From: Pseudo-nitzschia pungens
Taxonomy: Eukaryota > Bacillariophyta > Bacillariophyceae > Bacillariales > Bacillariaceae
DNA: 64,000 nucleotides
Direction of reading: 5' to 3'
Assembly (NCBI GenBank): GCA_037355855.1
Contig: CM074763.1
Span: forward strand, 4,464,001 to 4,528,000
Under the pieces are notes generated by a model that was not told where the DNA came from, ran no database searches, and saw only the letters and a program-made list of their open reading frames with translations. Shown piece by piece: positions 28,854 through 56,840 of the stretch. Each line of letters begins with the position of its first letter. Positions within the stretch are counted from its first letter, which is position 1. The position numbers and the translations under genes are program-made.

Positions 28854-29069
28854 GTAAGGTATAACCTGTAATGCAAGGTTACGTTGATACGTACATTATC
28901 ATTTCCTAAAGATACAACTTTCGCTAAATTTTTATCTCATTCATGAATGGCATTGTGAAGAAGGTCACCGGTTGTTGTCAAATAACAAAATATTAGTAGT
29001 ACAACATAAGTCTAGCATTCGTTCCCATGAGGCTTGCCCAAACGGATCGGCTGATTCCGCCGACTGGTT

Positions 29070-30480: not shown

Positions 30481-30509
30481 AAATTCCCATTTTTTAAAAC
30501 ACAGGGGTA

Positions 30510-30628
30510 ACAAAGATATCATGATCCCAGTCTTTCAGGAGTACAGCAAAAAAACACATGATCCCAGTCTTTCAGGAGTGCAGGGAATCACATACTATGG
30601 TACAGATGATTCTGGTGTATTGGGATTG
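30510..30628 (+). repeat. Degenerate ~42-bp repeat array, left segment
   Basis: Units read like ACATGATCCCAGTCTTTCAG followed by GAGTGCAGGGAAT. The array stops at the ATTG duplication of Copia element 1 and resumes after it at 40583, so the retroelement landed inside the array. Confidence 0.7.
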
Positions 30629-31593
30629 TGTGTTGATATCCGCTCGTCAGCGGTCTTCAGGGAACTTAATCGTAGATATAAACTGTCTCGTACTGGTCTA
30701 AAAATAAGGGAAAGCCCTAACAATAATAATACACGAGGTCCTGGCAAATCATGAGTTTACAGTGGACTGTTCAAGGTCTATTGCATACACTTAAGCAATA
30801 CAAGGCACTTCCCTAGAGGTACATCGGGATCGATCGAAAGGAGGGCATGATAGGTGTGTTTATTTTAGAGTGAAACATAAAGAGTGAATAAAAGGGAGCT
30901 GAGCGCGTCTCAGCTCTGTATCGTGACATCGATCCGCTAACTCGCTAACTCGTATAATAACAGCGCTCCGTAGGTCTGGTACTGTATTCTACGGGTAGCG
31001 TATCGGAGTATCGTAGGGTATCTCCGATTAATTAGATCAAATCGTGTGCTAGCTCACTTATGCTAGCACGTTTGGTAACTGTTTGGGCCGGGTATCCGGT
31101 CATGGTATATATTATACACCAATGACCCGACCCCGGCGGTAGCATAGTATCTTAGCATGATATTATGGTAGGTTAGCACCATCAGTATCTCGTAGCCTTA
31201 GCAACCCTAACCCTGTAGCATTTAGCTACGCCATAAAAAGGTGCTTTACTCGGGGTACGTACGATTGGTACAAATCGTACGCGGCGACCCTAGTAAACTC
31301 TGCTAGCATCCATACTAAACAGGATAGTAGGATATAGGTCTGCTGCTAAGCCTGTTGCTAAGCCTGTTGCTAAGCCTGTTGCTAAGCCTGTTGCTAAGCC
31401 TGTTGCTAAGCCTGTTGCTAAGCCTGTTGCTAAGCCTGTTGCTAAGCCTGTATGCTAGCAATTAGCACACAGCTCTAGCATTCAGCCCAGCACCTGTTAG
31501 TCAGTTACTGGGGGCTGCTGCCTGTAGCCCCAGTACACTCTCCTGCACAGAAGCCTTAGCACAGATCATAGCACCACCTTGAATATCTTCATA
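30629..31593 (-). repeat. Element 1 LTR (3' LTR in coding sense)
   Basis: 965 bp. Contains nine GCTAAGCCTGTT units (about 31341-31450) and several perfect inverted repeats, among them GAGCTGAG/CTCAGCTC, GTGCTAGC/GCTAGCAC and CGTACGATT/AATCGTACG. The internal sequence next to it, in coding sense, ends in ATCACGGGGAC, a weak candidate polypurine tract. Confidence 0.92.
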
Positions 31594-32259
31594 GTCCCCG
31601 TGATTCATGCTAGTATTCCTGTACTGAGCAAGCAACTATACTGGTCCCCGGAAACAGATACTCCCAGGGGAACACCAATACTCTTGCTTGTTGTACCAGG
31701 ACACTTGGATGGATCATAACATAATTCAGGGGTGTATCCATATCACTTGTCAGAGGTCAAACTGCATCAAATATTGCAGTTCTCTATCAGAGGCCCGGCC
31801 GATTTATTGTAGAAAAAAAAGAGGGGGTTGGACCGAAAGGCGTTTTGCCCTTGGTCCGATTCCTTAACACATATAAGGACATATCAATCGGCCTATTGTC
31901 TTTCAAGTTTATAGTCCCCGGAACCGGTGTACCGGAGACTCCCAAATACATAACATATAACATAAGATCAGGTCGGATCGAAATCTGCTACAACCAAATA
32001 ATCCATAATCCGTAATCGGAATCCACTGCGTTCCGAAAATAAGATTGCGGCACTTGGTTGCAATAAGGATCAAAATCGAAGCGTCCGAAAGCGTTGTGTC
32101 CGAAAGCGTTGCGTCCGATAATCGAAATCAAAATCGTGACTATCGAAGAACTTGTAATCGAAATCTGAAATGGCCTGGTTCCGAAAATCGAAATCAAAAA
32201 TCTTCTGCGTCCGAGCTGCTTGTCAGGGACACATGTATCCCAAATAATGCAGCTAACAG
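31594..32259. other. Element 1 internal non-coding region, 3' side
   Basis: Lies between the RNase H stop and the 3' LTR. Contains repeated CGAAATC/CGTCCGA-type words (about 31975-32215). The same kind of sequence occurs at 47190-47410 in element 2, so it is an element part. Confidence 0.6.
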
Positions 32260-35200
32260 CTACCACATGCAGCGCTCGCAGTGGCTTTTCAACATGGGAC
32301 CATTGAGCAACTTCGTGAATAAGTCAGCAATATTGGTCTCGCCAGGCTCCTTTGCAATGCGAATTGTCCCAGCAGCAATAGACTCGCGCGCCTTGTGGTA
32401 GGCAACACTGTTGTGCTTCTTGTTGCATGGACTCTCCGGCCTGGTGGTATTCTTAACAACAGATTCATTGTCACAGTACACATTGGTAGGACCTTCAATA
32501 GGGACACCCATCATCCGGAGCTTGTACCTAAGACCCTCAATCAGTTCAATGGCAATTCTTAACGCCACTATCTCAGATCCGAAGGTTGAGGTCTCCACAG
32601 TAGTTTGGCGTTTGCTGAACCACAGGATAGGGGCCCTGTTAAGGAATATAATAATTCCCGTATGGGATCTTCTTGTTGCTTTGCATCCGGCATGATCGGC
32701 GTCAACAAAGCAACTCATAATAACTGCTTTCCCAAGGGGTTCAGGAGCATCCGGTGGCAACACTTCCTTGGCATCTGGATAGAACTCACTCCAATCACAG
32801 TCGGGGAATCTGGACTCATCCACTTCAGGCCGGGTCTCATCAAACACCAACTTGGATCGGGCATGCGCCTTGAGATAGGCAAACATGTGCAATACTTGGT
32901 TCAAATGCCCTGTTCGCGCTTGTGCTAGATATCTAGACATAAGAGATACAGGCATGACCAAATCCAGTCTCCCAAGTTCGCACAACCACCTCAAGACACC
33001 AATCAGGCCCTGGTAGTAGTTCTGCTTGCTTGGATCCAGTTCGGCGGTTACATCAACTTCTGGACGATAATCGGATGTCAACGGGGTAGACACCTTGTTC
33101 GGAAGGTACTTGTAACCATACTGCTCGGTGCCAAGCTCCTTCTCTACTGCGTCGATGGCTTTCTTGGCATATTTCTCAGAGGACATCGCCCACTTGGGGA
33201 TTGGGTCATCTTCAACCACATGCGAATGAATATCAGCGCCCAAATACAAGGTTGGAACTTCTATAGTCCCGTCCTTTAACGTGAAGCGCTGCTCGATACT
33301 CTCCAACTGCCGTCTTGGGTCCTCACTGCAACAGATGATATCGTCGACGTATGCAATCAAGTAAGCCCAGTACCTAGAACCATCCTTTCGCGTCTCCACT
33401 CGCATATGAACATCAGGATCAGCTTTACAGGGTTGATATCCTAGCGTTCGTAGGTGCTTGGTCAAATAGGATCGGAACGACGCGCCTGCAACAGGAAGTC
33501 CATACAGTGCTCGAACGATCTTACATACCTGACCTACCAAGTGCGGGGGAAAACCATCTTCTGCTCGTGCAACCAAATAATACTTCTTCTTGATCGGCGC
33601 TGTAAGGTAGGCATTCTGGATGTCCGCAGACAGTACGTCCAAATTGTTCAGCGCTGCCAACAGGAAGAAAATACGGACTGAATCTCTGCTTGGTACACTG
33701 CTGAAGGTATGTTCCTTGGCAGTAGCTTGTACCTTGTGGCCGTCGGCGACTAATCTAGCCTTTCTGGTGAGGGATCCCAGCTTGACGTCGAATATCATAT
33801 GGGTAGTGATCCTGCTGAATCCTTCGGCCTTGAGACCTTCGACGGTGTAGCTTGGATCGAACTCGAACGCCATCTCGTTGTTTCTCATCTCCTTCGCAAT
33901 CGCCTTCTCCCAATAGTCCGTTCCAGTCTTTCGGTCGATGGCTAGGGCTTCAGGAATAGAATGAGGCAACTCCACTCCAAACTTGTGTGTCCTATCCCAG
34001 TACTTGTTTCGCTTGGTGGCCTTGAGGATTCGCTTCTTCCTTCGTAGTACGTGGTGGATCCACCATCGGAACGCTGGCTGCTCTGAAATCTTGGCGGATA
34101 CGGCGTACTCTGCGGTCTGCACAGGAAAGGACTCTTTTAGGTCGCTCAACTTACACCAGGATTCAGTTCCATCCTTCCAACTGACGAGCAATCGCCATCC
34201 CTTCGTGGTAGGCCTGGGAACTTTGCGACCATACCTGTTGGTGATCGTCGCATCTTGCTTCCTAACGGCGGATCCGTCCTTCTCGTGATCGATAATCTCG
34301 TCCAGTAGAGAGAACATTCGTCCGTCGTCATCGATCTCGCTGTACATGCTCTCAGCAACAATATTGGCGGTGTACTGCTCGACGGAACCATCTGGAAACT
34401 GCAGATCATACATTCTGGTATCAAGGATAGGGTTATCATTCCTCTTGCCAATCGGATTGCCATTAAGATCAGCAGAACGATTCTTCACGACACACCGTAG
34501 TCGTTCGTTGCCCTTCTGGATCATGACATTATTACCAATATACTCATCATAGTCATCCCCATCAGGTATGAGGTCGTCGATGTCTGGGATGGAGGCTTCA
34601 GGCTCGGCGAGCTCCCATCGTTCTTGGTGTCCTTCAAATAATTCAGCAGGGGGATCAGGGTACGTAGCTTGGAACTTTGCGTCGTTATCCTCAACCTTGT
34701 CCCCGATCTTGGATTCAACTGCTTGGTCAAATGAGTCCATATAGCGCTTGACGTCATGGGAACGCCATTCTTCTTCAGTAACAGCAAGGACTGTGTTAGT
34801 GCTTACCGGCATGGCCGCCTCGTTCAGAATCCAGTGGCAATCTCCACCTCCGAATCGGTCACCGCACGGGCCAAGCCACCGTCCCAACTTTTTGGTCCCA
34901 TCAGAGAGATCAACCCAATAGACGAAATCATACCATTCATGGGCTTGGTACAGAGATATATCAGGCATGTACCCGTGTACAATTTCGAACGGCGTTCGAC
35001 CCATCACCGTAGGATCACTGGAAGCCGTGCGCTGTCGGATGGCAGCAACAAGCTCCCCACAGAAAGCCCACAGGCGCTTGGGGGATCGTTTCCGGGCCGT
35101 CTTCTTGCGGATGCTTCTGCTGATATGGCCGATGCTGAGCTCCGCGCGATTCTGGAAGGGACATCTTGGCTGGATGAAGGTCTGGTGGATATGGTGCTTG

Positions 35201-36793
35201 CTGACAACCTTATTCCATGGAGTCTTGTAAGTCCCAGGGGCTCCTTGCTCTCGAGCGCCATCGGATATCAAATGTTCGGGGATGCCAACATCGTGGATGA
35301 AAATCTTCAGTCCTTCATACGCTTGCCTCTTGCCCTGTATAGGTATGAACTCGTCGTAGCCCTTACCATTACTGAAAACTTGGGCGGCTGAATCTTGTCG
35401 CATGATGCTCGGGACCTTTGCCATCCAGGTGTCGGTATACCATTTGCCAGCCGCGACGCGCTTGTTTCTGAAGCTCTGTGTTGGCAATCGGCGGACGAGG
35501 GGATGCATTGGGTTGCGGAATCCTTTCTGGGTCGTGACTCGAAGGGTATCCGCAGCCTTCCTCAGGGATACATCCCAAATCTTGGACAGACGGTCGGAGT
35601 CGATCTTGCAGTATCGTTCGGTGTCAATCGTCGGACCCCACTTGGCTCGTCTGGCGATAGTGTCGAGCTCGGGATCGACTGGTTTGACTGCATCGTCCCA
35701 TCGAACATGCTTGTAAACTGATGACAGGCAGACGGGAGAATTGGAAGCGCTCGTGTCCATCGGTGTAGGCGCGCTCGTACAGAGGGGTATGCAGGGCATT
35801 GACTGTAAGACTTGGTACTGAATCGTCGTCTACATCATCGTCCCCGCAAGTCTTCAAGGAATCGCCCGAAAAGAGAGAAGAAAGCCGTGCATCCAGACGA
35901 GAGTCGGATGCAATCGCACATGGGGTCAGATCACGGCGGGTACAGAGTTGCTGAAGACTCCGCAGCTTGTACTTCTCATAGCAATCATGCTGTGGTAGGA
36001 TCAGCTCGTCGCTCCGAAGAGGCTTGTCATACATATGGGGACTGAAATTGGACCGTGTCTCGTCTGGCTCCAACTTGCGCTTGTTGGACTTCTTGGACTG
36101 CTTCGTGGTCGGCGCGGACGCATGGGGCGTCCCCGCGCGAAGGACAGACAACGTAGGATTCAACGGATGAGAGCCGTCGATAGCTTCTTCGGCTTGCTCG
36201 AACTTCTTGCTCTTCGGGTCCCAAGGGAAGTCTCGGGTTGCAACGACATGATTGCATGTGGCCATCTCATGCTTGGTGGGCTTGCGGGAAGGGAAATAGG
36301 ACACAACCCCATCAAGCAGGAGCTTGATGTCGAGGGTGTGTCCCGCTTGGGGATCTTCAGGATCGGTATTGTCAATATGGATGGAGTGACTGGACTGTCC
36401 GTCATATTGACGGGGCGCTTCATTGACACGATTGGGGTGACAGTCCCGTATCTGATTCGGACAAATCAAGCTGTGGGGTAACTTGTCGCCAAAATACAGG
36501 GCTTCGTGGAAGTAAATCAACCAAACTTTCCCGTCGGTATCTGTGTAGGCCGTAACACAGGTCCCAATAGGAATGTTCTTGATAGGCTCGAGCTCAGGCG
36601 AAAAGGGATGAACATCGACGTGGCTGACGACTTGGTCTTCAAGCAAGATCATGTTGGAACCGGCGGCAGTCGTATCAGCGTGGCTGTCCAGCTCGCATTG
36701 CCCCTCAGGACTGGGTGGGGGGCGCGTGCGTGGCAGATCCATCTGGTACAACAGCCGGCCGACCTTACTTAATTTCGGGCACCGGCCGTCGGT
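32260..36793 (-). pseudogene. Element 1 pol: protease, integrase, RT, RNase H
   Basis: Frame A runs from 36793 to about 35745 and includes the protease motif CELDSHADTT (about 36700). A small insertion/deletion near 35745 shifts to frame B, open to the stop at 32260. Element 2 reads through this point, showing it is damage. Integrase core: WYTDTW, LISDGAREQ and QNRAE give the D, D, E pattern. RT: RKARLVADGHK, LSADIQNAYL, AYVDDI (catalytic DD) and ALYGLPVAGASF. RNase H: CFVDADHAG, STFGSEIVALR, VYCDNESVV, NIADLFTK. Gene order puts integrase before RT, as in Copia. These proteins would copy and insert the element. Confidence 0.9.
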
Positions 36794-38743
36794 TCAGTTC
36801 TTGGGGGTCTGTCCTTGGTTCGAGCCGTTGCCCTTCTTCTTGTTCTTTCTACGCCCCTTGGGTCCAAAACTGTTCCCTGCGCCTTGGGTCGCATTCGCGT
36901 TCGCGGAGGCAGCAGGCGTGGTATGGTTCGAACTAGTTGACTGGATAGTTTGAGCCTTCTTCTTCTGACGGAGGTCGTACAACTGCTTTCGTTGTGCCTT
37001 GGAGAAGGTCTTGTAAACTTCGTAGGGATACTTTTTATCTTCGACCTTCCCACTATACGATTGACTTCCTTGGTCGTCACCACCATCTTGGCGTACAGAG
37101 GAAATACTTCGCGCTCGCTTGGTTGAAGCCGCACCCATCTTCCGTATGCCGAGGCATTTCTTGAAGAATGAGACGCATTCATTGAAGTTTTTGGTGTACT
37201 TTTCACCTTCGAGGACTTGGATCTTGGGGTTCTCAAACCGATCATCTTGGATGCTGTGGATGAAATTCATGGTGAAGTCTTGCTCGTCGGGCAACTTGTC
37301 GTTGTTGACGAGCGTAGTCTGGAAATTCAACCAAGTTCTGCAGTGCTTCTCAAAATCGTAGGTACGAGAATCCCCGGTATATTTTGAAGTGAACATGCTT
37401 GTACGGACCTTGTCAATGATAGCCGCGACGTTGGTATCGGAGAAGGCATTCTCGTAGAGGGTTAGGAAAGCCGCTCAGGCGTTCCCAGTTGGATTCTTCG
37501 AGTCTTTGTATCTTCGGGTGTAGGCCCAGCCAGGGCCGTCACGAACTGCATTGCAGAGCAGTACCCAAACGTCGTGGTTGTCGGTGACAAATTGCGGGCC
37601 TTCAAGCGTGGCGCATCAAACATTGTAATCCATCCAGTTGGAAAAAGTTCCGTCTTTCCCAACAGTGGCGGATCTTTCTGCTGCAGTCACCGCCTCTTCC
37701 TCCTTCGGACGAATAACATATGACAGGGGGAATCCTCGCTCATTGTACTGGAAGCGGAGGAACTGACGGAAGTTCTCTTCCCACTGACGAAAGTTGTCAA
37801 AGCTAGCGAGCTTCGGCAGAGTAATGGATGCTGAGACTGTCTCCTTGTCGGCAGTTTCCATTCCAGTTAGGCGCTCACGCGTCCGGTCGGCTGCGAGGGG
37901 ATCACTAAGCCAAGTATGGGCTGTAGGCTTGATACCAATGAGAGGTTGGTAGCGGATCCATTCCGAAAGGAGCTTAAAGGATTGCCTGAAAAAAAGTCCG
38001 ATGAATACTTGTTCGTGGTAGGGACACATCGGGTGACGGTCTCCATTGAAGTCGCGGAGGTACTTGGGTAGTTCCTTGGCAGAGAGCTGCTGAATGGACT
38101 CGATGCTGTTGAGGCCATTTCGGAATAGTTCATCCGCCGTATCACTGTTACTGAAACCAGAAAGGATCGTGTGGAGGTCTAACTCTCTTGAGGTGAGTTT
38201 TGCTCCATTCTTGTACCCAGAGATGCCTCCATTAGCCTGGGCTGTGGCATGAGCTTGGAGGATGTCAGGACTAGCTCCTGTAGGGGCGGCGACAAGAGCC
38301 GTAGCGGGAGCAGGAGCAGGAGCAGGGGCACGAGCGGCGGCAGCGGCAGCAGCAGCAGTAGCAGCCTCAGCGGCAATCCGAGCTGCATTCTCGCTGCGCA
38401 TGGCTCTTAGTTCTTGAATAGCAGCAAGTAGGATCATCTCAGATCGAGGTTGGATGTCAAGGTTCGGTTCTTGTTGGACTCTGGAGCCTCCAAGGACAGC
38501 AGGAGCAACAGGAGGGACCCCAGGCGCTCCGACAGGGGGAACACCGGCTCCAACAACGGCAGCGCCAGCGGCCCCAGGGACAGCGCCTTCAGGGACTGCG
38601 CCTCCAGGGACGGCGCCTCCAGGGACAGCGCCTCCAGGAACAGCTCCACCTCCAGGAGCAGCGCCATCTCCAGGGACAGCGCCGCCTCCGGCGGCAGCGC
38701 CGCCTCCAGCTTCAGGGGCATCTCCAGCAGTTTGCTTGGCCAT
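36794..38743 (-). pseudogene. Element 1 gag with in-frame TGA stops
   Basis: One frame from ATG at 38743 to 36794, interrupted by TGA at 37616-37618 and 37475-37477 and ending with TGA at 36794-36796; pol continues in the same frame beyond it. The N-terminus is a Gly/Ala/Pro/Val repeat (GAVPGGAVPGG units of 15 bp, about 38560-38700), then an Ala/Pro-rich stretch, then the conserved capsid-like part (about 37640-38230). The C-terminal third is basic (GPKGRRKNKKKGNG), probably nucleic-acid binding; no CCHC knuckle is visible. Each TGA could be a decayed CGA codon. Confidence 0.8.
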
Positions 38744-39653
38744 GGTTGTCTTGACTTGCTCTGAGTAACTAACTTGCTTCAGTTTCTAAACCAAATTCTT
38801 TTGTGGTGGGGACTGTTTCCACCCAAGTTGTCGATCAAAGGTCTGTGTCGGTTTCGTTTTTCGAAAGAAGAACATCCGAATCGATGGTCCGTGCCGATCG
38901 GAGGTTACGTGTCGACAACCAAAAGAAAAGGTATCCGGGATGGTTGGTTACCAAAAGAGAAGAATTCTTTCGGTCTTTCTGCTCTGGACCAATCGATTTG
39001 ATTTTTGGGACATGACTGGTCCCAGGGATCTATCGGTTTTGAGATATGACTGATCTCAGAGACATGACTGGTCTCACGTTGATTTTTGAGATATGACTGA
39101 TCTCGGGGTTCTGATTCCAAGTTCCCTTGGCTAAAATCAAAAAATCGATGGTATGGCAGATTCGAGGCGGTCCGGGCCTCATTTCTTGTTGGATGGTCCT
39201 GACGTCATGTTCTGCTGGACATAACTGTCCTCACTGGGGGATACGTGGTGGTCTGTCTCCACGAAAGTTCTTTCCCAGTGTGGTTCCATCCGTTGCAAAC
39301 AAGCGTCCCCTTGAATCCTGTAAATAACAGGGAATCATGGACGCTGCTTTCTCCATGTCCTGCTCCTTCCCCACCGGATCGAGCCCTATGGTGCCACCAT
39401 GACGCTCAACTACCGTATCATGTATCAGTAGACCCCCAGAGGTGGATGTGTCGGGCTCCGGTCAGTCCGCGTGTCTGCTGGGGAAGGGCTCCCCATTAAC
39501 ATCAGGGATCTCACGATGTCAGCTGCTGGTCCAGTTACAGCTGATGGTTTTACATCCGGCATGGATGCCAGTGGTGATCAACCAACTGGGTTTCGTCACA
39601 CGCTCTAGCCGGCGTCCCGGATCGTAGTGGGTCGAGCGGTGGGTCTGATAAAC
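38744..39653. other. Element 1 5' leader with putative primer site
   Basis: Untranslated leader between the 5' LTR and gag in coding sense. Just inside the LTR, the minus strand reads GTTTATCAGACCCACC (39638-39653), where a tRNA primer binding site is expected; it resembles but does not match the TGGTATCAGA site of initiator-Met primers. Short repeated words GACATGACTGGTC/GATATGACTGATC occur at 39010-39100. Confidence 0.5.
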
Positions 39654-40582
39654 TGTGTTGATATCCGCTCGTCAGCGGTCTTCAGGGAACTTAATCGTAG
39701 ATATAAACTGTCTCGTACTGGTCTAAAAATAAGGGAAAGCCCTAACAATAATAATACACGAGGTCCTGGCAAATCATGAGTTTACAGTGGACTGTTCAAG
39801 GTCTATTGCATACACTTAAGCAATACAAGGCACTTCCCTAGAGGTACATCGGGATCGATCGAAAGGAGGGCATGATAGGTGTGTTTATTTTAGAGTGAAA
39901 CATAAAGAGTGAATAAAAGGGAGCTGAGCGCGTCTCAGCTCTGTATCGTGACATCGATCCGCTAACTCGCTAACTCGTATAATAACAGCGCTCCGTAGGT
40001 CTGGTACTGTATTCTACGGGTAGCGTATCGGAGTATCGTAGGGTATCTCCGATTAATTAGATCAAATCGTGTGCTAGCTCACTTATGCTAGCACGTTTGG
40101 TAACTGTTTGGGCCGGGTATCCGGTCATGGTATATATTATACACCAATGACCCGACCCCGGCGGTAGCATAGTATCTTAGCATGATATTATGGTAGGTTA
40201 GCACCATCAGTATCTCGTAGCCTTAGCAACCCTAACCCTGTAGCATTTAGCTACGCCATAAAAAGGTGCTTTACTCGGGGTACGTACGATTGGTACAAAT
40301 CGTACGCGGCGACCCTAGTAAACTCTGCTAGCATCCATACTAAACAGGATAGTAGGATATAGGTCTGCTGCTAAGCCTGTTGCTAAGCCTGTTGCTAAGC
40401 CTGTTGCTAAGCCTGTTGCTAAGCCTGTTGCTAAGCCTGTATGCTAGCAATTAGCACACAGCTCTAGCATTCAGCCCAGCACCTGTTAGTCAGTTACTGG
40501 GGGCTGCTGCCTGTAGCCCCAGTACACTCTCCTGCACAGAAGCCTTAGCACAGATCATAGCACCACCTTGAATATCTTCATA
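39654..40582 (-). repeat. Element 1 LTR (5' LTR in coding sense)
   Basis: 929 bp, matching the LTR at 30629-31593 except for six rather than nine GCTAAGCCTGTT units. Followed by the ATTG target duplication. Confidence 0.92.
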
Positions 40583-41015
40583 ATTGCACAGAAACAAATA
40601 CATGATGATCCCACTCTTTCAATAGTGCAGTTAATCAACTACATGACGCTCCCAGTGATGCTCCCCGTCTTACGTGGTGGGTGCCGGCAGGGAACCAAAT
40701 ACATGATGATCCCAATCTTTCAGGAATGCCAAGAGACAACAACACAATGATCCTGGTCTTTGGGGAGTGCAGGGAATTAAGTACATGATGATCCTGGGCA
40801 TAGTACATGATGATCCTGGTCTTTGGGTTACAAGTACACTATGCTCCTGATCTTATGTGAATGTATGGAAACAAATACACTGTGATCCCAGTTGTTTGTG
40901 AGTGCACCAGGAAATCAAGCCCACGATGATCCTGGTCTTTTGGGAGTGTACAAAACCAAAGACATGATGATCCTGGTCTTTTTGGAGCGCATGGAGGCAA
41001 GTACATGATGGTCCT
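40583..41015 (+). repeat. Degenerate ~42-bp repeat array, middle segment
   Basis: About ten units with the core ATGATCCTGGTCTTTGGGAG, each followed by GTGCAGGGAA-like and CAAGTACATG-like parts. It ends at the terminal repeat of the DNA transposon and continues at 55583. Confidence 0.75.
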
Positions 41016-41038
41016 GTCCAAAAACTGGTTCGCGACCC
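41016..41038 (+). repeat. Terminal inverted repeat, left
   Basis: 23-bp terminus beginning GTCCAAAAACTGG; complement of 55559-55581 with two mismatches. Confidence 0.8.
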
Positions 41039-41418
41039 CTCTCAAGAATTCATATGGGGGGTCGCGATTTATTCCTGGGTCACTTTTGATGTAGCTCCAT
41101 TCGTAGCCCTCTCGCGATTCGCAACCCCAATCGCGAGCCGGGTACTACCTCAACTCCGAGAAAAGGAAGAAAAATTCAAACAAGACCCAAATTTTTTTGT
41201 AAGACTCAAATATTTTTTCTTCAGTCACTTAATCAAATTAATCAACCCCATTCTAATTTCTCGTGCCATTTTCAAAAAATTATTTTTGTCTCGAACTAAT
41301 TCCCCCCTTCCCCCAATTTTTTTATCTGACTCATTATTGCCGACCCTACCATTATTATATATTATGACACTGTTCCAGAAATTCACTCTCAAAAATTTAT
41401 TTCTCACCACGATACCAA

Positions 41419-43980: not shown

Positions 43981-44640
43981 CACTGGAAGACAAAAAAATG
44001 TTGGACAGTATGACCTATGCACAGGAAATATGCACATTCTGTGGTGTAAACTCTGGTACTGAGAATCTTTCTGAGAAATTACAACTTACATCCAAAATAT
44101 AATTGGTATCCAGTTTATTCCTTTTTAGTATTCTAATAGATGCATATACTGACCATTATTCAGTGTGGAATACAAAAAATTTAGGACAGTGTGACCCATA
44201 CACAGGAAATATGCACATTCTGTGGTGTAAACTCTGGTACTGGGAATTTTTCTGAGCAATCAGGTGTCACATCCAAAATATAATTGGTACCCAGTTTATT
44301 CCTTTTTAGTATTCTAATAGATGCATATACTGACCATTATTCAGTGTGGAATACAAAAAATGTAGGACAGTGTGACCCATACACAGGAAATATGCACATT
44401 CTGTGGTGTAATCTCGGGTACTGAGATTTTTTCTGACAAATCATGTGTCACACCCAAAATATAATTGGTACCAGTTTGTTCCTTTTTAGTATTCTAATAG
44501 AAGTATATACTGACCATTATTCAGTGTGGAATACAAACAATGTAGGACAGTGTGACCCATAAACAGGAAATATGCACATTCTGTGGTGTAAACTCGGGTA
44601 CTGAGAATGTTTCGGAGAAACCCAAAAATAAGAAGTGGTA
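43981..44640. repeat. 181-bp tandem repeat, about 3.5 copies
   Basis: The word ACAGGAAATATGCACATTCTG occurs at 44021, 44202, 44383 and 44563, spacing 181, 181 and 180. Units include CAGTGTGGAATACAAA and CCTTTTTAGTATTCTAATAG. The last unit overlaps the 3' end of the truncated transposase, whose final 45 or so codons are repeat sequence. Confidence 0.88.
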
Positions 44641-45932: not shown

Positions 45933-46819
45933 TGTGTTGATATCCGCTCGTCAGCGGTCTTCGGGGTCTAATCGTAGAACTTAATCGGCTTGTACTGGTC
46001 TGTAAATAAGGAAAAGCCTTAACAATAATAATACATGAAGTCCTGGCAAATCGTGAGTCTACAGTGGACTGTTCAAGGTCTATTGCATACACTTAAGCAA
46101 TACAAGGCACTTCCCTAGAGGTACATCGGAATCGGTCGTAAGGGAGGGCATGATAGGTGTGTTTATTTTAGAGCATAAAAGAAAGAGTGAATATATCGTG
46201 GCAGGAGCTGAGCGCAGCTCAGCTCTGTATCGTATCGTGACAGCGTTCGATAACTCGTATAATAACAGAGCTCTGTAGCTCTGGTACTGTATTCTACGGG
46301 TAGCGAATCGTATCGGAGTATCGTATCTCCGATTAATTATTAGCGATATGCTAGCTCACTTATGCTAGCCCGTTGGGTAACTGTTTGGGCCGGGTATCCG
46401 GTCATGGTACATATTATACACCAATGACCCGACCCCGGCGGTAGCATAGTATCTTAGCATGGTATCATGGTAGTTTAGCACCACCAGTATCTTGTAGCTT
46501 AGCAACCCTAACCCTGTAGCATTTAGCTACACCATAACAGTGCTATACTCGGGGTACGTACGATTGGTACAAATCGTACGCGGCGACCCTAGTAAATTCT
46601 GCTAACATCCATACTAAGCAGGATAAGCCTGTTGCTAAGCCTGTTGCTAAGCCTGTTGCTAAGCCTATTGCTAACCATTTAGCACACAGCTCTAGCACTC
46701 AGCTCAGCACTCAGCTCAGCACCTGTTAGTCAGTTACTGGAGGCTGCTGCCTGTAGCCCCAGTACACTCTCCTACACAGGAGCCTTAGCACAGATCATAG
46801 CACCCTGGATATCTTCATA
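45933..46819 (-). repeat. Element 2 LTR (3' LTR in coding sense)
   Basis: 887 bp; starts TGTGTTGATATCC and ends ATATCTTCATA. Related to the element 1 LTR but with many small indels. Keeps the GAGCTGAG/CTCAGCTC stem with a changed loop, and four units of the 12-bp repeat. Confidence 0.9.
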
Positions 46820-47399
46820 GTCCCCGTGATTCATGCTAGTATTCCTGTACTGAGCAACTGTACCGGTCCCCGGAAACAGATACTCCCAGGGGAACACCAA
46901 TACTCTTGCTTGTTGTACCAGGACACTTGGATGGATCATAACAAAATTCAGGGTTGTATCCATATCACTTGTCAGAGATCAAACTGCATCAAATATTGCA
47001 GTTCTTCTATCAGAGGCCCGGCTGATTCGTAGTACAAAAAAAAAAGGGGGTTGAACCATAGGACATTTTGCCCTTGGTTCGATTCCTTAACACATAGAAG
47101 GAGATCAATCAGCCTATTGTCTTTCAAGTTTATAGTCCCCGGAACCGGTGTGCCGGAGACTCCCAAACATGTAACATATAACTTCATATACAAAAGCGAA
47201 ATCGGATCGAAATCAAAGTCTTCCGAAGAACTCGTTGCTTCCGAAACAACAATCGGAATAAAGTTGCAATCGAAATAAGGTTTCAATCGAAATCGGATCT
47301 GCTGAAAACTGCGTTCCGAAAGACGTTGCTAATCGAAGTCGTAACGATTGGAGAGCTCGTAATCAAAATCGAAACGGTCGATAAACTCGTAATCTAAAT

Positions 47400-47735
47400 C
47401 CGTTGCGTCTGAGCTGCTTGTCAGGGACCAAAGGTATCCCAAATAATGCAGCTAACAGCTCCTACCACGTGCATCGCTCGCAGTGGCTCTTCAACATGGG
47501 ACCATTAATCAACTTGCGAATAGGTCTGCAATGTTGCTGTAACTTGGTTCCTTCGCGACCCGAATTGTTCCAGCAGCAATAGCCTCGTGTGCCTCGTGGT
47601 AGGCAACACTGTTGTGCTTTTTGTTGCATGGACTCTTTGGTCTTGTGACGGTCTTCGCCACAATCTCATAGCTCCTGGTAGGACCACAGTAATACCAAAT
47701 ACCGATCCAAATCCAAAGAATAATAACAAGCAACT
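47400..47735 (-). pseudogene. Element 2 RNase H remnant
   Basis: Matches the last part of element 1 pol: RPKSPCNKKHNSVAYHEAHEAIAAGTIRVAKEP and the NIADLF region are recognisable, then the frame breaks. Everything of pol upstream, through RT, is missing. Confidence 0.75.
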
Positions 47736-49030
47736 CATGCTCCGTGTCCCCGGAATAAAGATTTCTGGTTCAACAACTAGATCAAAGGGACTTGGTACCC
47801 GCATGGATCATACAATAGATCACAGCTGGACCACACCGGTCCCCGAACTGGCTGCTGACAGTTCATTCATTGTGGTTAACATGACACAGCTGAGAGGTTG
47901 ATTCAGCTGTTCTTGTGTACCCGCTGTTCGTACATCTCGCGTCCTGCTTGGGCATAATTCCAGATTCGAAGCGCGCTGCTACTGCAACTCGTTTCGTTCG
48001 TCCGTTCGTTCGACTATGAGCAAGCGGTCGTCCTTGGAACATAACAACTGTTGCTGTTCTATCCGTTCTTCTTGGGTTCGCTTGTCACTTGTTCCGATCC
48101 TATCCTAATCACGCTGCTCGTCTTGTAATACTGTCTTACAGACAGCAGAGTTCCTGATTCGTAGATCGTATCGGTTCGTAGATCGTATCGGTTCGTAGAT
48201 CATATCGATTCGTAGATCATATATTCAAAAACACGCTGCTCCTGTAACAGGATGACCGATTCAATCGTTGGTTGTTGTCCCCGGAACAGCAGTTCTGTAT
48301 TCATGGTAGTATCAGACATACATCGGTTTCGATGCCACATTTTCAATGCTGGTCTGAATCCCCGGTCGATTTACTCAATCGGTGATTCGCAATCAGCGTC
48401 ATCCGTAGAGTAGCTTGTGGTAATCAACGTCAGCGTCATCTGTGTAACTCGTGGTAATCAGCTTCCAGACAAGGTAGAGAACATGCGCTAGCGTCGTAGC
48501 AGGGATGAATTGAATAGTCTTCGATCGATACATTCAATCGATACATTCAATCGGTCGTAGCAATTAGTGTCAATCGAAGTACCTCAGGCAATGCTAGTTC
48601 TGCACGAGGCAGACACCATGCGGTATCTAGCTGTCGTCTAATATAACCTCAACTTCAACTTCAATGCTGTTGCTGTTTGTAATCTTCTGTTCTGTGCGCA
48701 ACGCCGCTATCTTTTCATGTTGCACGCAACTCCGTTGCGCTTCCATTGTTCAGCCTACTGGTATTCAACCTGTAACAGGGACAGCATGTCCCCGTATCAG
48801 TATCATTCCACATATACAGGCTTGATTCTTGCAAGGCTCGTACTCGGATAAATCACTGTTTAGTTCACTTGCGGCGGCTCAAGCCACATGAGCGTACGCA
48901 TGCTTTGCTGTAGCGTCAGCGCTCCACCTCTAACAGAGACCACATGTCCCTGTAGCCGGAGCGATCATATGCTGTTACTCATCGTGCTTCACGCAACTCC
49001 GTTGCGCTTCTTCGTGGCATCTTGCTTCCT
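47736..49030. other. Element 2 filler sequence replacing RT
   Basis: No coding similarity to element 1. Rich in short direct repeats: four TTCGTAGATCGTATCGG-type 17-bp units at 48158-48224, and CAATCGATACATT units near 48525-48555. Recurrent phrases such as TCCCCGGAA and ACGCAACTCCGTTGCGCTTC (48726-48745 and 48991-49010) occur within it. Confidence 0.55.
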
Positions 49031-50430
49031 GACGGCGGATCCATCCTTTTCATGATCGATAATCTCGGTACTGCTCGACGGAACCATCTGGAAACTGCAG
49101 ATCATACATTCTGGTATCAAGGATAGGGGTATCATTCCTCTTGCCAATCGAATTGCCATTAAGATCAGCAGAACGACTCTTCACAACACACCGCAGTCGC
49201 TCGTCGCCCTTCTGGATCATCACATTATTACCAATATACTCATCATAGTCATCCCCATCAGGTATGAGATCGTCAATATCTGGAATGGAAGCTTCCGGCT
49301 CGGCGAGCTCCCATCTTTCTTGGTGTCCTTCAAATAACTTCGCAGGGGGATCAGGGTAGGTGGCTTGGAACTTCACGTCAGTATCCTCAACCTTGTCCCC
49401 GATCTTGGATTCCACTGCTTGGTTAAATGAGTCCATATAACGCTTGACATCATGGGAATGCCATTCTTCATTCAGGGGCTTGGTACAGAGATATGTCTGG
49501 CATGTACACATGTACCATCTCGAACGGCGTTCGTCCCATCGTCGTAGGATTAGCTGTGCGTTGTTGGATTGCAGCAACAAGCTCCCCGCAGAAAGCCCAC
49601 AGGCGCTTGGGGAATCGTTTGCGGGTTGTCTTCTTGCGGATGCTTCTGCTGATATGGCCGATGCTGAGCTCCGCGCGATTCTGGAAGGGCTGGATGAAGG
49701 TCTGGTGGATATGGTTCTTGCTGACAACCTTATTCCATGGAGTCTTGTAAGTCCCAGGAACTCCTTGCTCTCGAGCGCCATCGGATATCAAATGCTCGGG
49801 GATCCCAACATCGTGGATGAAAATCTTCAGTCCCTCATACGCTTGCTTCTTGCCCTGTATAGGTATGAGCTCATCGTAGCCCTTACCATTACTGAAAACT
49901 TGGGCGGCTGAATCTTGTCGCATGATACTTGGGACCTTTGCCATCCAGGTGTCGGTATACCATTTGCTAGCCGCAATGCGCTTGTTTCTGAAGCTCTGCA
50001 TTGGCAGTCGGCGAACAAGGGGATGTAGTGGGTTGCGGAAGTCTTTCTGGGTCGTGACTCGAAGAGTATCCGCAGCCTTTCTCGGATGTACATCCCAAAT
50101 CTTGGACAGACGGTCAGAATCAATCTTGCAGTATCGTTCGGTGTCAATCGTCGGGCCCAACGTGGCTCGTCTGGAGATCGTGTTGAGCTCGGGATCGACT
50201 GGTTCGACTGCATCGTCGTCCCATTGAACATGCTTGTAAACTGATGACAGGCAGACGGGAGAATCCCTGCAATGGGGATCCAATTCGAAGCGCTCGCGCT
50301 CGTACAAAGGGGTATGCAGGGCGTTGCTTGTAAGACTTGGAACTGTATCCTCGTCTAAATCCTCGTCTACATCGTCTCCGCAAGTCTTCAAGGAATCGCC
50401 CGAAAAGAGAGAAGATAGTCGCGCATCCAA
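49031..50430 (-). pseudogene. Element 2 integrase region
   Basis: Two overlapping frames (49468-50430 and 49050-49781) correspond to element 1 integrase and the region after it. The D (WYTDTW), D (LISDGAREQ) and E (QNRAE) positions are present. A deletion between the integrase core and the downstream VKRYMDSFNQAVE part, and a frame change near 49470, break it. It reads straight through the point where element 1 is frameshifted. Confidence 0.8.
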
Positions 50431-51640
50431 ACGAGAGTCAGATGCAATCGCACATGGGGTCAGATCACGGCGGGTACAGAGTTGCTGTACTTCTCGTACC
50501 AGTCATGCTGTGGGAGGATCAGCTCGTCGCTCCAAAGAGGCTCGTCGTACTAATGGGGACTGAAATTGGACCGAAATTGGACCGTGTTCCGACGGGCTGG
50601 ACCTCTTGGACTGCTTCTTGGTCGTTTCCGCGCAAAGGGCGGACACCGTAGGATTCAATGGATGAAAGCCGTCGATGGCTTCAATGGATGAAAGCCGTCG
50701 ATGGCTTCTTCAGCTTGCTCGAACTTCTTGCTCGTCGGGTTCCAAGGGACATCCCGTGTAGCAACGACATGATCGCATGTGGCCATCTCATGCTTGGTCG
50801 TACTGTCGGGGGATTCATCAGCACGATCGGGATGGCAGTCCTGTATCTGATTCGTGCAAATCAAGCTGTGGGACAGCTTGTCGCCAAAATACAGTGCTTC
50901 GTGGAAATAAACCAACCAAACTTTCCTGTCGGGCGCTGTGTATGCGGTAACACAGGTTCCAATAGGAATATTCTTGATAAGCTCAGGCGAAAAAAGGGTG
51001 AACATCGACGTGACTGACGACTTGGTCTTCAATCAGGGTCATATTGGATGTCCGATTCCTGCTGTAGGCATATTGCGTGTCGGGGCAGGGGTCTCAATCG
51101 GTATAGGTCCGATTCCTGCTGTAGGCACGTTGCCTGTCGGGGTATTAACCTTGGTCTGTTGTTGCTGCTGTTACTGTACGGCAGAAACAAACTTGGTCGA
51201 AGAAACAAACTTGGTCGAATCAGGTGAATGGGGGTGTGATGGGTTCCAGGGTGCGTCCCTTGTAGCAACCGCATGGGCACACGTCCACAATTGCTGATTC
51301 AGCTTGCTGAAATTTCGGGCTTGCTTGATGCCAGGGGGCATCCCTTGTAGCAATCACATGGTCACACGTCTGCATTTCCTCCGTCGTGGGGCGCCTGGAG
51401 AGGAAGTATCAAACTGCCTTGGTGTCTTATCCACTTGATTGTGACCACAGTCCCTAACCTGGTTGGGACACATCAGGCTGTGCTGTAGCCTGTCCCCAAA
51501 ATATAGTGTCTCATGGAAATAGATTAACCAAGCCTTCGTAACTGGATCTGTATAAGAATCCACGTGGGAGGTAACTTGGTCTTCCAATAAAATCATGTTA
51601 CAATATCGGCATGGCTATCGAGCTCACAGTTGCTCTCTTT
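50431..51640 (-). pseudogene. Element 2 protease/pre-integrase region, duplicated and divergent
   Basis: Two versions of the same protein part lie in a row: 50655-51032 (VYFHEALYFGDKLSHSLICTNQIQDC), close to element 1, and 51354-51625 (IYFHETLYFGDRLQHSLMCPNQVRDC), clearly more divergent and preceded by CELDSHAD. The junction near 51040-51300 has short repeats (GATTCCTGCTGTAGGCA). This suggests a join of two related elements. Confidence 0.7.
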
Positions 51641-52530
51641 CGGCCTTGCTGATCTTGCTGCTGGTACATCCATTTGATACACCAATGCTGAGACAGATCG
51701 ACGGCGCTACGCTCGTAACAGGGCCCGTCGTAGCAGGTCTATCAACGAGCGTCGTTGCTGTCAGGTCTATCAACGGGCGTCGTTGCTATCGCACATAGCA
51801 TGCTGCTCGTGTTTTACACAGGTCCGCTGTGTACTAGGCGCACATGCCTTTGGTCATATCTTGTATCAGTCATCGACATATCTCCCATTCTGTATCCTCT
51901 ATCCTTGTAAGTCACGAGCGCTGTGGCCGTCACATTGCTCCTTACATTGGATCATGTTAACAATGCGCTACAGGTCCATGCTGCGCTTGTTCCCTTGCTC
52001 CCGCCAATCCTTTTAGCTGCTGTAGGCTTCTCTCCTGTCAGGGCATCGATGTTGTTCTCTTGTTGCTGCTACTGCTCTTTCGCCGCAAGGACATACATAA
52101 ACATCGTTGTCCCCGCTGTTCTTCAGGTAGAGAGGATCAATCGGTCAACGCTGCGTCTAGCATCCGCTGCGAATCCTCGCGTCTAGCGTCTGCTGCGAAT
52201 CCTTGTTGCTATCGATCCATCGCTATGGACTTGGCTATCGATCCATTGCTATCGATCTGTTACGGATCGATCCATTGCTATGGATTCTTTACAGCACATC
52301 GTTTGCGCTCGTAAGGCAGTCTTCTTTCTCGTATGCCAGTCGTCGGGCACTACCGATGACACCTTTTCTTCTGTCATGAGCAAAGATGGGCTTCTTGTTG
52401 AGGATACTGGTGGTTTCAGGGATACTTTTTGCAAATACTTGCAAACATACAGGTCTTTCGGCCGTCGAACGTCATAAACATACAGGCCTTTCGGCCATGG
52501 AACGTTTGGACGCTCAGGTTTGGTGTCAAA
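51641..52530. other. Element 2 filler sequence replacing the end of gag
   Basis: No similarity to element 1 coding DNA. Contains repeats such as ATCGATCCATTGCTATGGA (about 52210-52280), GGTCTATCAACG.GCGTCG (51738-51783) and GGCCTTTCGGCCATGGAACG-like units (52455-52505). Confidence 0.5.
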
Positions 52531-53120
52531 ACATGCAGGCCGTGCGGCCTTCAATCCTTCCGGATCCTTCAATTGCATACGTCCAATCTCCAATTCTTTC
52601 GATGTTACCGGATACCATATCCAATCGAGGAGAATGGCAATATTTCGAAACCAGGAAACACATTATCCTTAGTCGACTCCGTCTCTTCCTTTGGACAGAA
52701 TCAATCGTAGATAAATCAGATCGGAATAACTTATCAGCCGTAGCATCATTGGAGAGCCGTAGCATCATTGGAGAAAGATTAACGATCTCTCGTCTGGTGA
52801 GTGGCTTTCCATCTTTGTAACCGTAGATTCTTCCACTCGCATGAGTGGCCTCGTTGGTAGCAATAAGATCCTCCTTGTCCTTCAAAGAACCAAAGTTCTT
52901 GCCCATTCGGTCCTGTAGAACTTGGAGTTGCTTGACAACCAGTCATGAAATCATCCTCCGCATGCACCATAGATCCTGCCACCTTGGTGTTGGCGTTGGC
53001 TTCGGCGTCTGCGCTCCAGTTGCGTTGACTCCAGGTGCACGACCAGGGACGGCTCCAGGTGCAGTGGTAGCGGCGGCGGCTGCGGCTGCAGCGGCTTGGC
53101 TTCTGTTTTGCTTGGCCATG
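52531..53120 (-). pseudogene. Element 2 gag, N-terminal part
   Basis: Starts at MAKQNRSQAAAAAA (ATG at 53120), like MAKQ in element 1, with a shorter Ala/Pro/Gly leader. A frame change near 52950 leads into GRIYGYKDGKPLTRREIV and ADKLFRSDLSTIDSVQ, matching the element 1 capsid-like part. It then ends within filler; the rest of gag is absent. Confidence 0.75.
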
Positions 53121-54021
53121 GTTGACTTGTTTTGACTTGCTCTGAGTAACTAACTTGCTTCAGTTTCTGAACCAAATTCTTTTGTGGTGGGGAACTGTTC
53201 CCACCTAGGTTGTCGATTGAGGTGACGACCAAAAGAAAAGGTATCACGTATCACGTCAGCGTTTCGGTGTCAACACTTTCGTGTTGACGTCTTTCGTGTC
53301 AACAGTTTCGTGCCGACGTTATCCACATCGATGGTTCCGATTCGATGGTTGGATGGTTGGTTACGACCAAAAAGAAGAATTCTATTCGGTCTTTCTGCTC
53401 CGGACCAGTCGATTTGATTCTGAGATATGACAGATCTCAGGGTTCTTGGCTTGTCTGATTCCAAGTTCCCTTGGCTAAAATCAAAATCGATGGTATGGCA
53501 GATTTGAGGTTGTCTGTGCCTCGTTCCGTTGGATGGGCCTGACGTCATGTCCTTGGTCTGCTGGACACTGTCTTCACTGGAAAGTACGTGGTGGTCTGTC
53601 TCCACGAAAATTCTTTTCCTTTTTCCAGTGTGGTTCCATCCGTGGCAAGCGAGCGTCCCCCTTGAATCCTGTAAAAATAACAGGAAATCATGGACGCTGC
53701 TTTCTCCACGTCCTGCTCCTTCCCCTACCGGATCGAGCCTCCATGGTGCCACCATGATGCTCATCTACTGTATCAACAACTGCGTATCAACAGGCCCCAG
53801 AGGTGGATGTGTGGGCTCCGGTCGTATTGCGCGTTTGCTGGGTGGGGAAGGGCTCCCCATTAACATCAGGGATCTCGCGATGTCAGCTGTAGGTCCAATA
53901 AGCTGATGTTTTACATCCAAGTGTAGGCATGGATGCCAGTGGTGATCAGCCAGCTGGGTTTCATCACGCGCTCTAGCCGGCGTCCCGGTTCGTAGTGGGT
54001 CGAGCGGTGGGTCTGATAAAC
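53121..54021. other. Element 2 5' leader
   Basis: Untranslated leader in coding sense, similar to 38744-39653 of element 1, with a short CGTGTTGACG/CGTGTCAACA repeat at about 53255-53320 not seen there. Confidence 0.6.
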
Positions 54022-54896
54022 TGTGTTGATATCCGCTCGTCAGCGGTCTTCGGGGTCTAATCGTAGAACTTAATCGGCTTGTACTGGTCTGTAAATAAGG
54101 AAAAGCCTTAACAATAATAATACATGAAGTCCTGGCAAATCGTGAGTCTACAGTGGACTGTTCAAGGTCTATTGCATACACTTAAGCAATACAAGGCACT
54201 TCCCTAGAGGTACATCGGAATCGGTCGTAAGGGAGGGCATGATAGGTGTGTTTATTTTAGAGCATAAAAGAAAGAGTGAATATATCGTGGCAGGAGCTGA
54301 GCGCAGCTCAGCTCTGTATCGTATCGTGACAGCGTTCGATAACTCGTATAATAACAGAGCTCTGTAGCTCTGGTACTGTATTCTACGGGTAGCGAATCGT
54401 ATCGGAGTATCGTATCTCCGATTAATTATTAGCGATATGCTAGCTCACTTATGCTAGCCCGTTGGGTAACTGTTTGGGCCGGGTATCCGGTCATGGTACA
54501 TATTATACACCAATGACCCGACCCCGGCGGTAGCATAGTATCTTAGCATGGTATCATGGTAGTTTAGCACCACCAGTATCTCGTAGCTTAGCAACCCTAA
54601 CCCTGTAGCATTTAGCTACACCATAACAGTGCTATACTCGGGGTACGTACGATTGGTACAAATCGTACGCGGCGACCCTAGTAAATTCTGCTAGCATCCA
54701 TACTAAGCAGGATAAGCCTGTTGCTAAGCCTGTTGCTAAGCCTGTTGCTAACCATTTAGCACACAGCTCTAGCACTCAGCTCAGCACTCAGCTCAGCACC
54801 TGTTAGTCAGTTACTGGAGGCTGCTGCCTGTAGCCCCAGTACACTCTCCTACACAGGAGCCTTAGCACAGATCATAGCACCCTGGATATCTTCATA
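54022..54896 (-). repeat. Element 2 LTR (5' LTR in coding sense)
   Basis: 875 bp, three units of the 12-bp repeat; otherwise nearly the same as the LTR at 45933-46819. The adjacent putative primer site (GTTTATCAGACCCACC on the minus strand) is the same as in element 1. Confidence 0.9.
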
Positions 54897-55152
54897 CAGA
54901 AGAAATGAAATCCATAAGATTGTTCTTACGATAATATGTCCGGCAATCACTGTTGGACTTGAGATGTAATGAAAGTCCTCTGCAGACATATCGGTAGGTG
55001 TAATTGTAGCTCAATTCTTGTTGTTTGTACCCCTTGAATGATTGCTGTGATTTTCTTGTTCTTCCGGAGGTAATGCAGTTGCGACAATGGAATGTCTTGG
55101 GTATTCTGGGATCATTGGCAAAGTGCCTTGGGTCAGAGGAAGCTTTCGGCAT
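54897..55152 (-). pseudogene. Plavaka-like transposase, N-terminal part (split by element 2)
   Basis: Encodes the zinc-finger-like start (CRNC, then HLKSNSDCRTYY) up to FISSV, where Copia element 2 cuts in. Compared with 272-1300, one A is missing near 55120 (CAAAG against CAAAAG), so the original start (SRTPPCRKLP, near 55170) is out of frame. Confidence 0.65.
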
Positions 55153-55558
55153 GGTGGGGTACGTGAAATATAAACATGTGTTTGATAATAAAATAATTGT
55201 TGTTGTGATGCGATTCTTAGCTGGGGTACCGGTATGTGACGTGACACCACTGAAAGAAAAAAGTTTTACAATGGTGCGCGATGTAACTTTTGTGTGATTG
55301 AAGTAAATCTGATTAAAAATTATTTGTTATATTGAGTCAAATGTGTCAAATGTGTCAAATGTGTCAAATGGAATGAAAGGGTGCTGAATATCAGGGTCTA
55401 GATCAGAACATTTTCCTGAAAACGATGCAGGGATTGAGAAAAAGGAGAAATAAGGTTGAGAATAGTGGAAAAAAGGTTGTGAAATAAAAAATTTGGGGTC
55501 GCGTTTTTCTGAGAAACATCGCGTTTGGGTTGCGTTTGGGTTGCGTTCTGGTCGCGAT

Positions 55559-55581
55559 GGGTCGCGAACCAGGTTTCGGAC
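55559..55581 (-). repeat. Terminal inverted repeat, right
   Basis: Reads GTCCGAAACCTGG from its outer end. Preceded internally by GCGTTTGGGTTGC-type words and by four TGTCAAATG subterminal units (about 55335-55370), as in the copy at 318-1716. Confidence 0.8.
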
Positions 55582-55582
55582 G

Positions 55583-56840
55583 CCTGGTCTTTGGGGAATA
55601 AAGAGAGACAACAACAAGATGATCATAGTCTTTGGGGAATGTGGTGAATCTAATACACAATGCTCCCTGTCTTTGGTGAATGCAAAAAAACAACAACACA
55701 ATGTTACCTATCTTTTGTGAGGGTAAAGAAAGAAATATACAATGATCCTGGTCAATGAGGAAAGTAGAGAAAGAGATACACCATGCTGTTGCTACTATGA
55801 ACCAAAATACACAGTGATCCCAGTCGTTGGTAAGTGCATGGAAGCAAGGAGTAACACAATCATCCCAGTCTTTTCAGAATGCAGAGAAACAACCACAAGA
55901 TGATCCTAGTATACAGAGAAACAACAATACAATGCTCCCCGTCTTTTGTGAATGCAGGGAAACAGCAACACAATGCTCCCTGTCTTTTGTGAGTGAGGCA
56001 AATCCAATATAGCTGTGATTGATCAATGTTCCTTCTGCTGCTGCAAGTGATCAACAACACAAAAGCATGATGATCCTGGTCTTTTCTGAATACAGAGGCA
56101 GAACTACATGAAAGACTGGGATCATTGTGTCTTTGATTCACTGCTTTCATGAAAGACCGAGATCATCCTATTGTAGACTGAAGACTAACAGCAGCAGCAT
56201 CATTGTACATTTGTTTCTCTGCATTCACAAAAGACCAGGATCATTGTGTATTTCTTTCTCTGCATTCATGAAAGACAGGGAGCATCATGTGTTTGGTCCC
56301 CTAAATCATGTATTTGGCTCCCTGAACTCACAAAAGACCTGAATCATCATATTTTTGTGTCCCCACACTCACAAAAGACCATGATCATTGTGTATTGATG
56401 TACTGGCACTCACAAAAGACCAGGATCATCACCATGTAGTTGGTTCCCTGCATTTCTGAAAGACCTGGATCACCATGTATTTCTTTCCATACACTCCAGA
56501 AAGACCGGGATCATTGCGTACTTGATTCCCTGAGGTTGCTCACAAAAGACCACGATCAGCATGGAATCAATTCCCTTCACTCCCAAACAACTGCTGGGAT
56601 CACAGTGTATTTGCTTCCATACATTCCTGAAAGACCAGGATCACAGTGTACTTGGTTCCCTACATTCTGAAAAGACCAGGATCACCATGTACATGTTCCC
56701 TGCACTCAGCAAAAATTTGGTCCCCTGCCAGCACTCACAAAAGACCGGGATTGTCATGCATTTGGTTTCCTGCATTCATGTAAGACCAGGATCATGGTGT
56801 ACTTGTACTTCTATCATTTGACTCCGTACACTCCTTTAAC
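55583..56840. repeat. Degenerate ~42-bp repeat array, right segment with inversion
   Basis: Continues the array at 30510-30628 and 40583-41015. From 55583 to about 56100 units keep the forward orientation (GATCCTGGTC, CTTTTGTGAG). From about 56120 to 56840 they are inverted (CTCACAAAAGACC, AGGATCATCATGTATTTGG). About 16 or more inverted units are visible, with period near 42 bp and heavy divergence. Confidence 0.8.

Follow-up and report, generated by a model that had tools for sequence, protein, structure and literature searches.

The window analysed here, a stretch of 64,000 nucleotides of the Pseudo-nitzschia pungens genome (C6:4464001-4528000 of a 66.9-Mb assembly of 28 contigs, to which all genome-wide counts refer), contains a nest in which two LTR retrotransposons and a Plavaka-like element with terminal inverted repeats (TIRs) interrupt a tandem array of 41-bp units. 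The left flank of the nest (29040-30177) was found once in the assembly, with no second haplotype of the locus, and downstream of the nest a copine-like product is encoded at 58854-59849. Among the 120 best matches listed for this product, two bear an organism name, and both are diatoms (Fistulifera solaris and Bacillariaceae sp.).

The left retrotransposon, Copia 1, lies on the minus strand at 30629-40582, with LTRs at 30629-31593 and 39654-40582 and an RVT_2 frame at 32260-35799 on that strand. Exact copies of ATTG at 30625-30628 and 40583-40586 bear out the initial annotation, which had placed this element in the array with an ATTG target duplication. Over 929 aligned bases its LTRs show 0 substitutions; they differ by one 36-bp gap, which corresponds to three 12-bp units of an internal array. 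Copia-type elements have LTRs starting with TG, 4-bp duplications and RVT_2, with integrase placed before reverse transcriptase. Paired LTRs starting with TG, a short (4-bp) target duplication and RVT_2 are all present in Copia 1; no integrase Pfam match was obtained in five Copia 1 frames, and the LTRs of both elements in the nest differ from the type in ending in TA.

The second retrotransposon, Copia 2 (45933-54896, minus strand; LTRs at 45933-46819 and 54022-54896), is bounded by exact CAGA duplications at 45929-45932 and 54897-54900, and its LTRs differ by 2 substitutions in 875 bases and one 12-bp gap. It departs further from the Copia type in that no RVT_2 match was recognised in the three frames scanned, and its longest minus-strand frame does not exceed 344 aa. 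We assigned it to Copia because its LTRs are 89% alike to those of Copia 1 and its body gives matches of 76-93% (the two bodies were compared by local matches, a global alignment being uninformative). The near-identical LTRs, together with the lack of a long minus-strand frame and of an RVT_2 match, suggest that Copia 2 may have been copied in trans when already defective. The body of Copia 2 (46820-54021) also carries 14 short tandem-duplication loci (period of at least 9) in 7.2 kb, compared with 4 in the 8.06-kb body of Copia 1, 9 in 28 kb of left flank; 10 shuffles averaged 0.2.

Copia 2 lies within the Plavaka-like TIR element (41015-55582, ~5.6 kb without Copia 2; TIR YGTCCRAAAMCTGGTTCGCGACCC), whose transposase frame (44517-45929, minus strand) abuts the insertion and matches PF18759 (Plavaka) by a narrow margin (E 4e-6; 26.7 bits versus a cut-off of 26.3). 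The earlier placement of Copia 2 inside this transposase agrees with the exact CAGA duplication, with the abutting frame and with an additional, incomplete copy of the Plavaka-like element at 322-1716 on the plus strand. This copy, 90.3% identical to that of the nest in an alignment of 1,383 bases, continues across the Copia 2 site (1033) and has a single CGGA where the nest has the duplicated CAGA, which by sequence makes it an empty site for Copia 2 in a related copy. In this empty copy the site is spanned by a 342-aa frame (272-1300, minus strand), and a Pfam scan of that frame alone returned no match. Also within the Plavaka-like element of the nest is a 181-bp tandem repeat (3.5 copies, 43984-44620).

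The target duplication of the Plavaka-like element, for which CCT had been offered as a possibility, is most likely CC (41013-41014 and 55583-55584). Among exact genome-wide matches to its end sequence GTCCRAAAACTGGTTCGCGACCC, the preceding base was C or T in 225 and A or G in 0 (C in 98 and T in 2 of the 100 of these 225 ends listed), and a pyrimidine before GTCC at 225/225 exact ends implies that this base belongs to the element. Its own outermost bases in the window are T at 41015 on the left and G at 55582 on the right, which makes T41015 the first base of the element. As far as the sections of PMC12730594 considered here go, the Plavaka families described are fungal, and the duplications are of 2 bp in PlavakaA and of 2 or 3 bp in PlavakaB. 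The window element resembles these families in its PF18759 match, its TIRs and a 2-bp duplication as in PlavakaA, whereas its termini (YGTCC..GGACR) are an exact match neither to TGT..ACA of PlavakaA nor to CATCA..TGATG of PlavakaB (PMC12730594, same sections). No diatom Plavaka study was apparent by title among the matches listed in a search of mostly open-licence literature.

With the inserts removed, the array is continuous. Phase was tested with a circular profile of 41 positions that had been trained on the window array. At the Copia 1 junction the phase passes from 40 (last base of 30510-30628) to 0 (first base of 40587-41015), and at the TIR-element junction from 25 (last base of 40587-41015) to 26 (first base of the piece starting at 55586) (a cut at 41014/55585 gives joined letters identical to those of a cut at 41015/55586). 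Joining cost 0 bits at both junctions, and the penalty for dropping 1-40 bases of the right-hand piece was never below 0.6 bits for Copia 1 or below 2.5 bits for the TIR element; the chance of two exact phases is, by arithmetic, ~(1/41)^2. The continuity proposed in the initial annotation is thus confirmed by exact phase at both outer junctions, and its figure of ~24.5 kb of inserted DNA corresponds to a measured 24,528 bp (9,958 + 14,570). Its description of the array needs correction, as the period given as ~42 bp measures 41, and the array does not keep one direction: it reverses strand, with plus-strand units to ~56105 and minus-strand units beyond.

Sequence of an array-linked repeat family extends to ~30180 on the left and to ~56944 on the right. 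Without the inserts, the window copy of this family comprises 2,237 bp (449 + 428 + 1,360). The first piece (30180-30628, plus strand) holds the left TIR (~30180-30206), a unique subterminal region and the first 41-bp repeats from ~30505, its last letters being ATTG; the second (40587-41014, plus strand) consists of plus-strand repeats and has CC as its last letters; the third begins with the remainder of the plus-strand arm (55585-56105), flips at ~56105 into the minus-strand arm (56106-56867) and closes with the right subterminal region and right TIR (56868-56944, plus strand; TIR at ~56918-56944). Profiles of the family ends, built from 19 left and 16 right ends, each had a single match in the window, at 30183-30480 (E 1.9e-71) for the left end and, weakly, at 56868-56943 (E 0.0011) for the right. 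From these alignments, extended by a few positions, we infer the exact outer edges of the copy, 30180 and 56944. They adjoin TA at 30178-30179 (a position counted from the profile alignment), the putative target duplication, and CA at 56945-56946, its right partner and one transition off. The left arm is ~80% identical to its best-scoring relative. Neither window TIR was recognised by the family TIR pattern at ≤7 mismatches in 28; the two resemble each other with a score of 28, which was reached by 5 of 20,000 random window 31-mers, some possibly overlapping the element.

Genome-wide, 41-bp units were found at at least 38 loci including the window (at least 37 others, among the best-scoring places listed and grouped by hand). 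We examined 23 of the 37 other array loci (loci L009-L028 and L046-L048), with strand order determined by BLAST in all 23. Eight are two-stranded, and in 8/8 of these the plus stretch comes first (minus first in 0), the remaining 15/23 having one strand; in L012 the start of at least one minus match falls within the plus stretch. The family TIR is the 29-bp sequence TACCCGTSAAAAACTWWAATGRATCACGT, and at ≤7 mismatches in 28 both TIRs were present at 6 of the 23 array loci, one at 6 and none at 11, the last group including three near-identical repeats (L046-L048). At six loci (L009-L014) both TIRs lie outside a two-stranded array, and in L011 a small repeat piece (1885-1990) lies outside its TIR pair. 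The repeats L046, L047 and L048 (on contigs C9, C5 and C1) are 2.2 kb long and 99.8-100% identical, each with ~0.28 kb of 41-bp array and no TIRs.

The TIR pattern at ≤3 mismatches had 98 forward and 107 reverse matches in the genome (205 ends), compared with 0 for the backwards control. By hand count, 30 facing TIR pairs occur among the 100 of 205 ends listed, 26 of which span 644-706 bp and 4 more than 4 kb. The 644-706 bp pairs represent a short form (e.g., L044, 665 bp), and no array was detected in the short-form loci examined. L009 and L044 have 297 bp on the left and 283 bp on the right in common, the arrays and further sequence of L009 replacing the middle 85 bp of L044. Between L009 and L010, two overlapping matches (92.9% and 91.4%) jointly run from TIR to TIR with none beyond, and no flank homology was found among L009-L012 (400 bp on each side, E ≤1e-3). 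Inverted sequence in L044, L009, L010 and L012 is limited to the outer ~30 bp and short motifs of ≤23 bp, their subterminal regions of ~270-300 bp being otherwise unlike between the two ends.

The 675 units compared came from the window and from 16 of the 23 examined loci, and their similarity was 0.725 within the same arm, 0.722 to the opposite arm of the locus and 0.723 between loci. This equality suggests that the arrays pre-date the spread of the family, having probably been built for the most part before the copies spread and without later homogenisation. For 396/485 units of two-stranded loci the best match was only at another locus, a count that is uninformative as most units are elsewhere. 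A search for the origin of the 41-bp unit in the short element gave a marginal match (E 0.21), and enrichment of array loci at contig ends was not significant (KS p 0.13; 33/38 loci, on contigs of known length).

At exact TIR ends, the base 5' of TA is G in 99/110 and A, C or T in 11/110. The data best fit a 2-bp TA target duplication at a preferred GTAC, the exact edge resting on few informative copies because the G before TA is nearly fixed. A 4-bp GTAC duplication is ruled out by copies with unlike flanks, namely C4:6096600-6097250, with tips TTA and TAA, and C2:50591-51255, with tips CTA and TAC. The putative TA duplication argues against Mutator for this family. No transposase with family TIRs was found in two of the four >4-kb facing exact-TIR pairs (among the 100 of 205 ends listed), of which L012 is an array-bearing copy and L049 a short copy that contains an LTR element. 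The 6.5-kb L049 was rejected as an autonomous partner, since it is a short copy split by that element (31-6569), which has a 1089-aa frame (RT, RNase H, integrase) and a 479-aa frame; this domain order is Gypsy-like. Another TIR pair of 6.5 kb (C6:1081761-1088307) may be similar to L049. DDE_3 (PF13358) had 44 matches in the genome, and by eye 0 of these fell inside the TIR pairs listed (100 of 205 ends).

We consider it highly probable (~0.9) that the region derives from a foldback-like TIR DNA transposon, non-autonomous and present here as one old copy, whose interior comprises two head-to-head 41-bp arrays and which was later invaded by the Plavaka-like element, Copia 2 and Copia 1. Directly observed are both LTR-element duplications, the repeat phase, the strand flip, the family ends at other places and full-length copies with array and ends in common and unlike flanks. 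Several points speak against this reading, namely the weak right end (E 0.0011), CA in place of TA, window TIRs outside the family pattern, the 11/23 loci without recognisable TIRs, the repeat piece of L011 outside its TIR pair and the lack of a transposase in the long pairs examined. Some of these points would suit a true satellite or minisatellite that was amplified in place and adjoins pieces of a TIR element by chance: the 41-bp units are tandem, 11/23 array loci have no recognisable TIR, and three near-identical 2.2-kb repeats hold a bare 0.28-kb piece of array. Such an origin is nevertheless improbable and already contradicted, as the full-length copies have array and TIRs in common and flanks not. 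A uniform head-to-tail array homogenised in place was not what we found, given that the plus strand comes first in 8/8 two-stranded loci, similarity is no higher within a locus (0.725 and 0.722) than between loci (0.723), and family ends flank the window array on both sides.

The flip at ~56105, viewed on its own, could also result from a chromosomal inversion or palindromic duplication confined to this locus, to which we assign a negligible chance, since it is refuted by the eight other plus-first loci, six of which (L009-L014) have both TIRs outside the array. Selection on coding or RNA-producing cargo, in the form of long frames or a long hairpin, would make the arrays more than passive filler. 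The unit indeed has no stops in any frame of one strand, with open frames of up to 346 aa (L010, L012 and L014), and the array centre (55800-56420) is predicted to fold with an MFE of -205 versus -135 +/- 6 in 30 mononucleotide shuffles, 127/198 pairs crossing the centre. We regard cargo as very unlikely, because stop trinucleotides on the open strand number 366 in 28,001 bases (22 arms from 12 examined loci and the window, the other examined array loci being left out), equivalent to the 345 +/- 18 of a neutral simulation, a strand free of stops occurs in 11.6% of shuffled rings, and folding is a trivial outcome of inverted arrays. Coding capacity of the repeats is therefore unsupported; with stops at the neutral rate, the long frames seem incidental to a unit free of stops and give no sign of coding constraint.

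The order given in the initial annotation (array, then TIR element, then Copia 2, with Copia 1 separate) stands, and the divergences agree with it. Under the foldback-like transposon reading, its lowest layer changes from a satellite to what is probably a TIR transposon with inverted repeat-arrays, which adds one layer to its count because that layer is itself a transposon. Divergences follow the nesting, with ~80% identity for the left arm, 90.3% for the Plavaka-like copy, 2/875 for the Copia 2 LTRs and 0/929 for the Copia 1 LTRs, the first two values being distances to relatives that only bound insertion ages. The arrays may have grown in an ancestral copy by unequal exchange or slippage and then spread by transposition. 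The anatomy of the foldback-like element suggests cut-and-paste movement in trans by a TA-duplicating transposase, through which it would have entered a TA between two host genes. The Plavaka-like element later inserted into the plus-strand arm, most likely duplicating CC, and Copia 2 then into the Plavaka-like element at its transposase frame, duplicating CAGA. In a separate step, Copia 1 entered the same plus-strand arm with duplication of ATTG; its order relative to Copia 2 is not fixed by the nesting and is indicated weakly by the LTR counts.

Among known foldback systems, Galileo is a P-superfamily element. Galileo and Drosophila FB resemble the present family in having long inverted arms that are internally repetitive. 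Inverted tandem-repeat arms occur in the window and 8/23 loci (15/23 being one-stranded), and the family moves as a unit with a target duplication (TA, with unrelated flanks; TA/CA in the window). In the four copies compared, the repeats do not lie within long TIRs reaching up to the element tip, and we therefore use the term foldback-like and not foldback. The closest precedent met is Tetris, a foldback transposon of Drosophila virilis, which in the portion of PMC4079207 considered here is likewise a non-autonomous element with TIRs, carries tandem repeats of variable number internally in two inverted arms, has a short relative with the same ends (DAIBAM), and has repeats that also occur in satellite-like arrays. 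Tetris has 8-10 bp duplications, for which Mutator was suggested, and repeats of ~220 bp within long TIRs (same portion of PMC4079207), in contrast to the TIRs of ~29 bp, subterminal regions that are not mirror images, 41-bp unit and TA duplication of the foldback-like family. That portion also ties most foldbacks to Mutator (PMC4079207), unlike the foldback-like architecture observed here, which occurs with what is probably a TA-duplicating element.

The novelty lies in a foldback-like family whose ends are unlike and whose target duplication is TA; nesting, foldback transposons and satellite-like foldback repeats were already known. No paper on a diatom foldback element was found in a search mostly limited to open-licence literature. 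It is possible, if rather doubtful, that this large family is moved by a transposase that duplicates TA, seeks GTAC and belongs to a lineage not known for foldbacks (205 TIR ends at ≤3 mismatches), in a 0.66-kb short form and a 3-4 kb array form with the same ends. If true, the family would provide a live system of a transposon becoming satellite-like DNA outside animals and plants. Under the main reading, an apparent satellite becomes a mobile element, and similar arrays may need annotation as transposons. The nest also offers a readable four-layer insertion series, nesting itself being ordinary. Another repeat family appears to be inserted in two further foldback-like copies, at 3304-5365 of L017 and 913-2789 of L033, which indicates that nesting in this family is not limited to the window.
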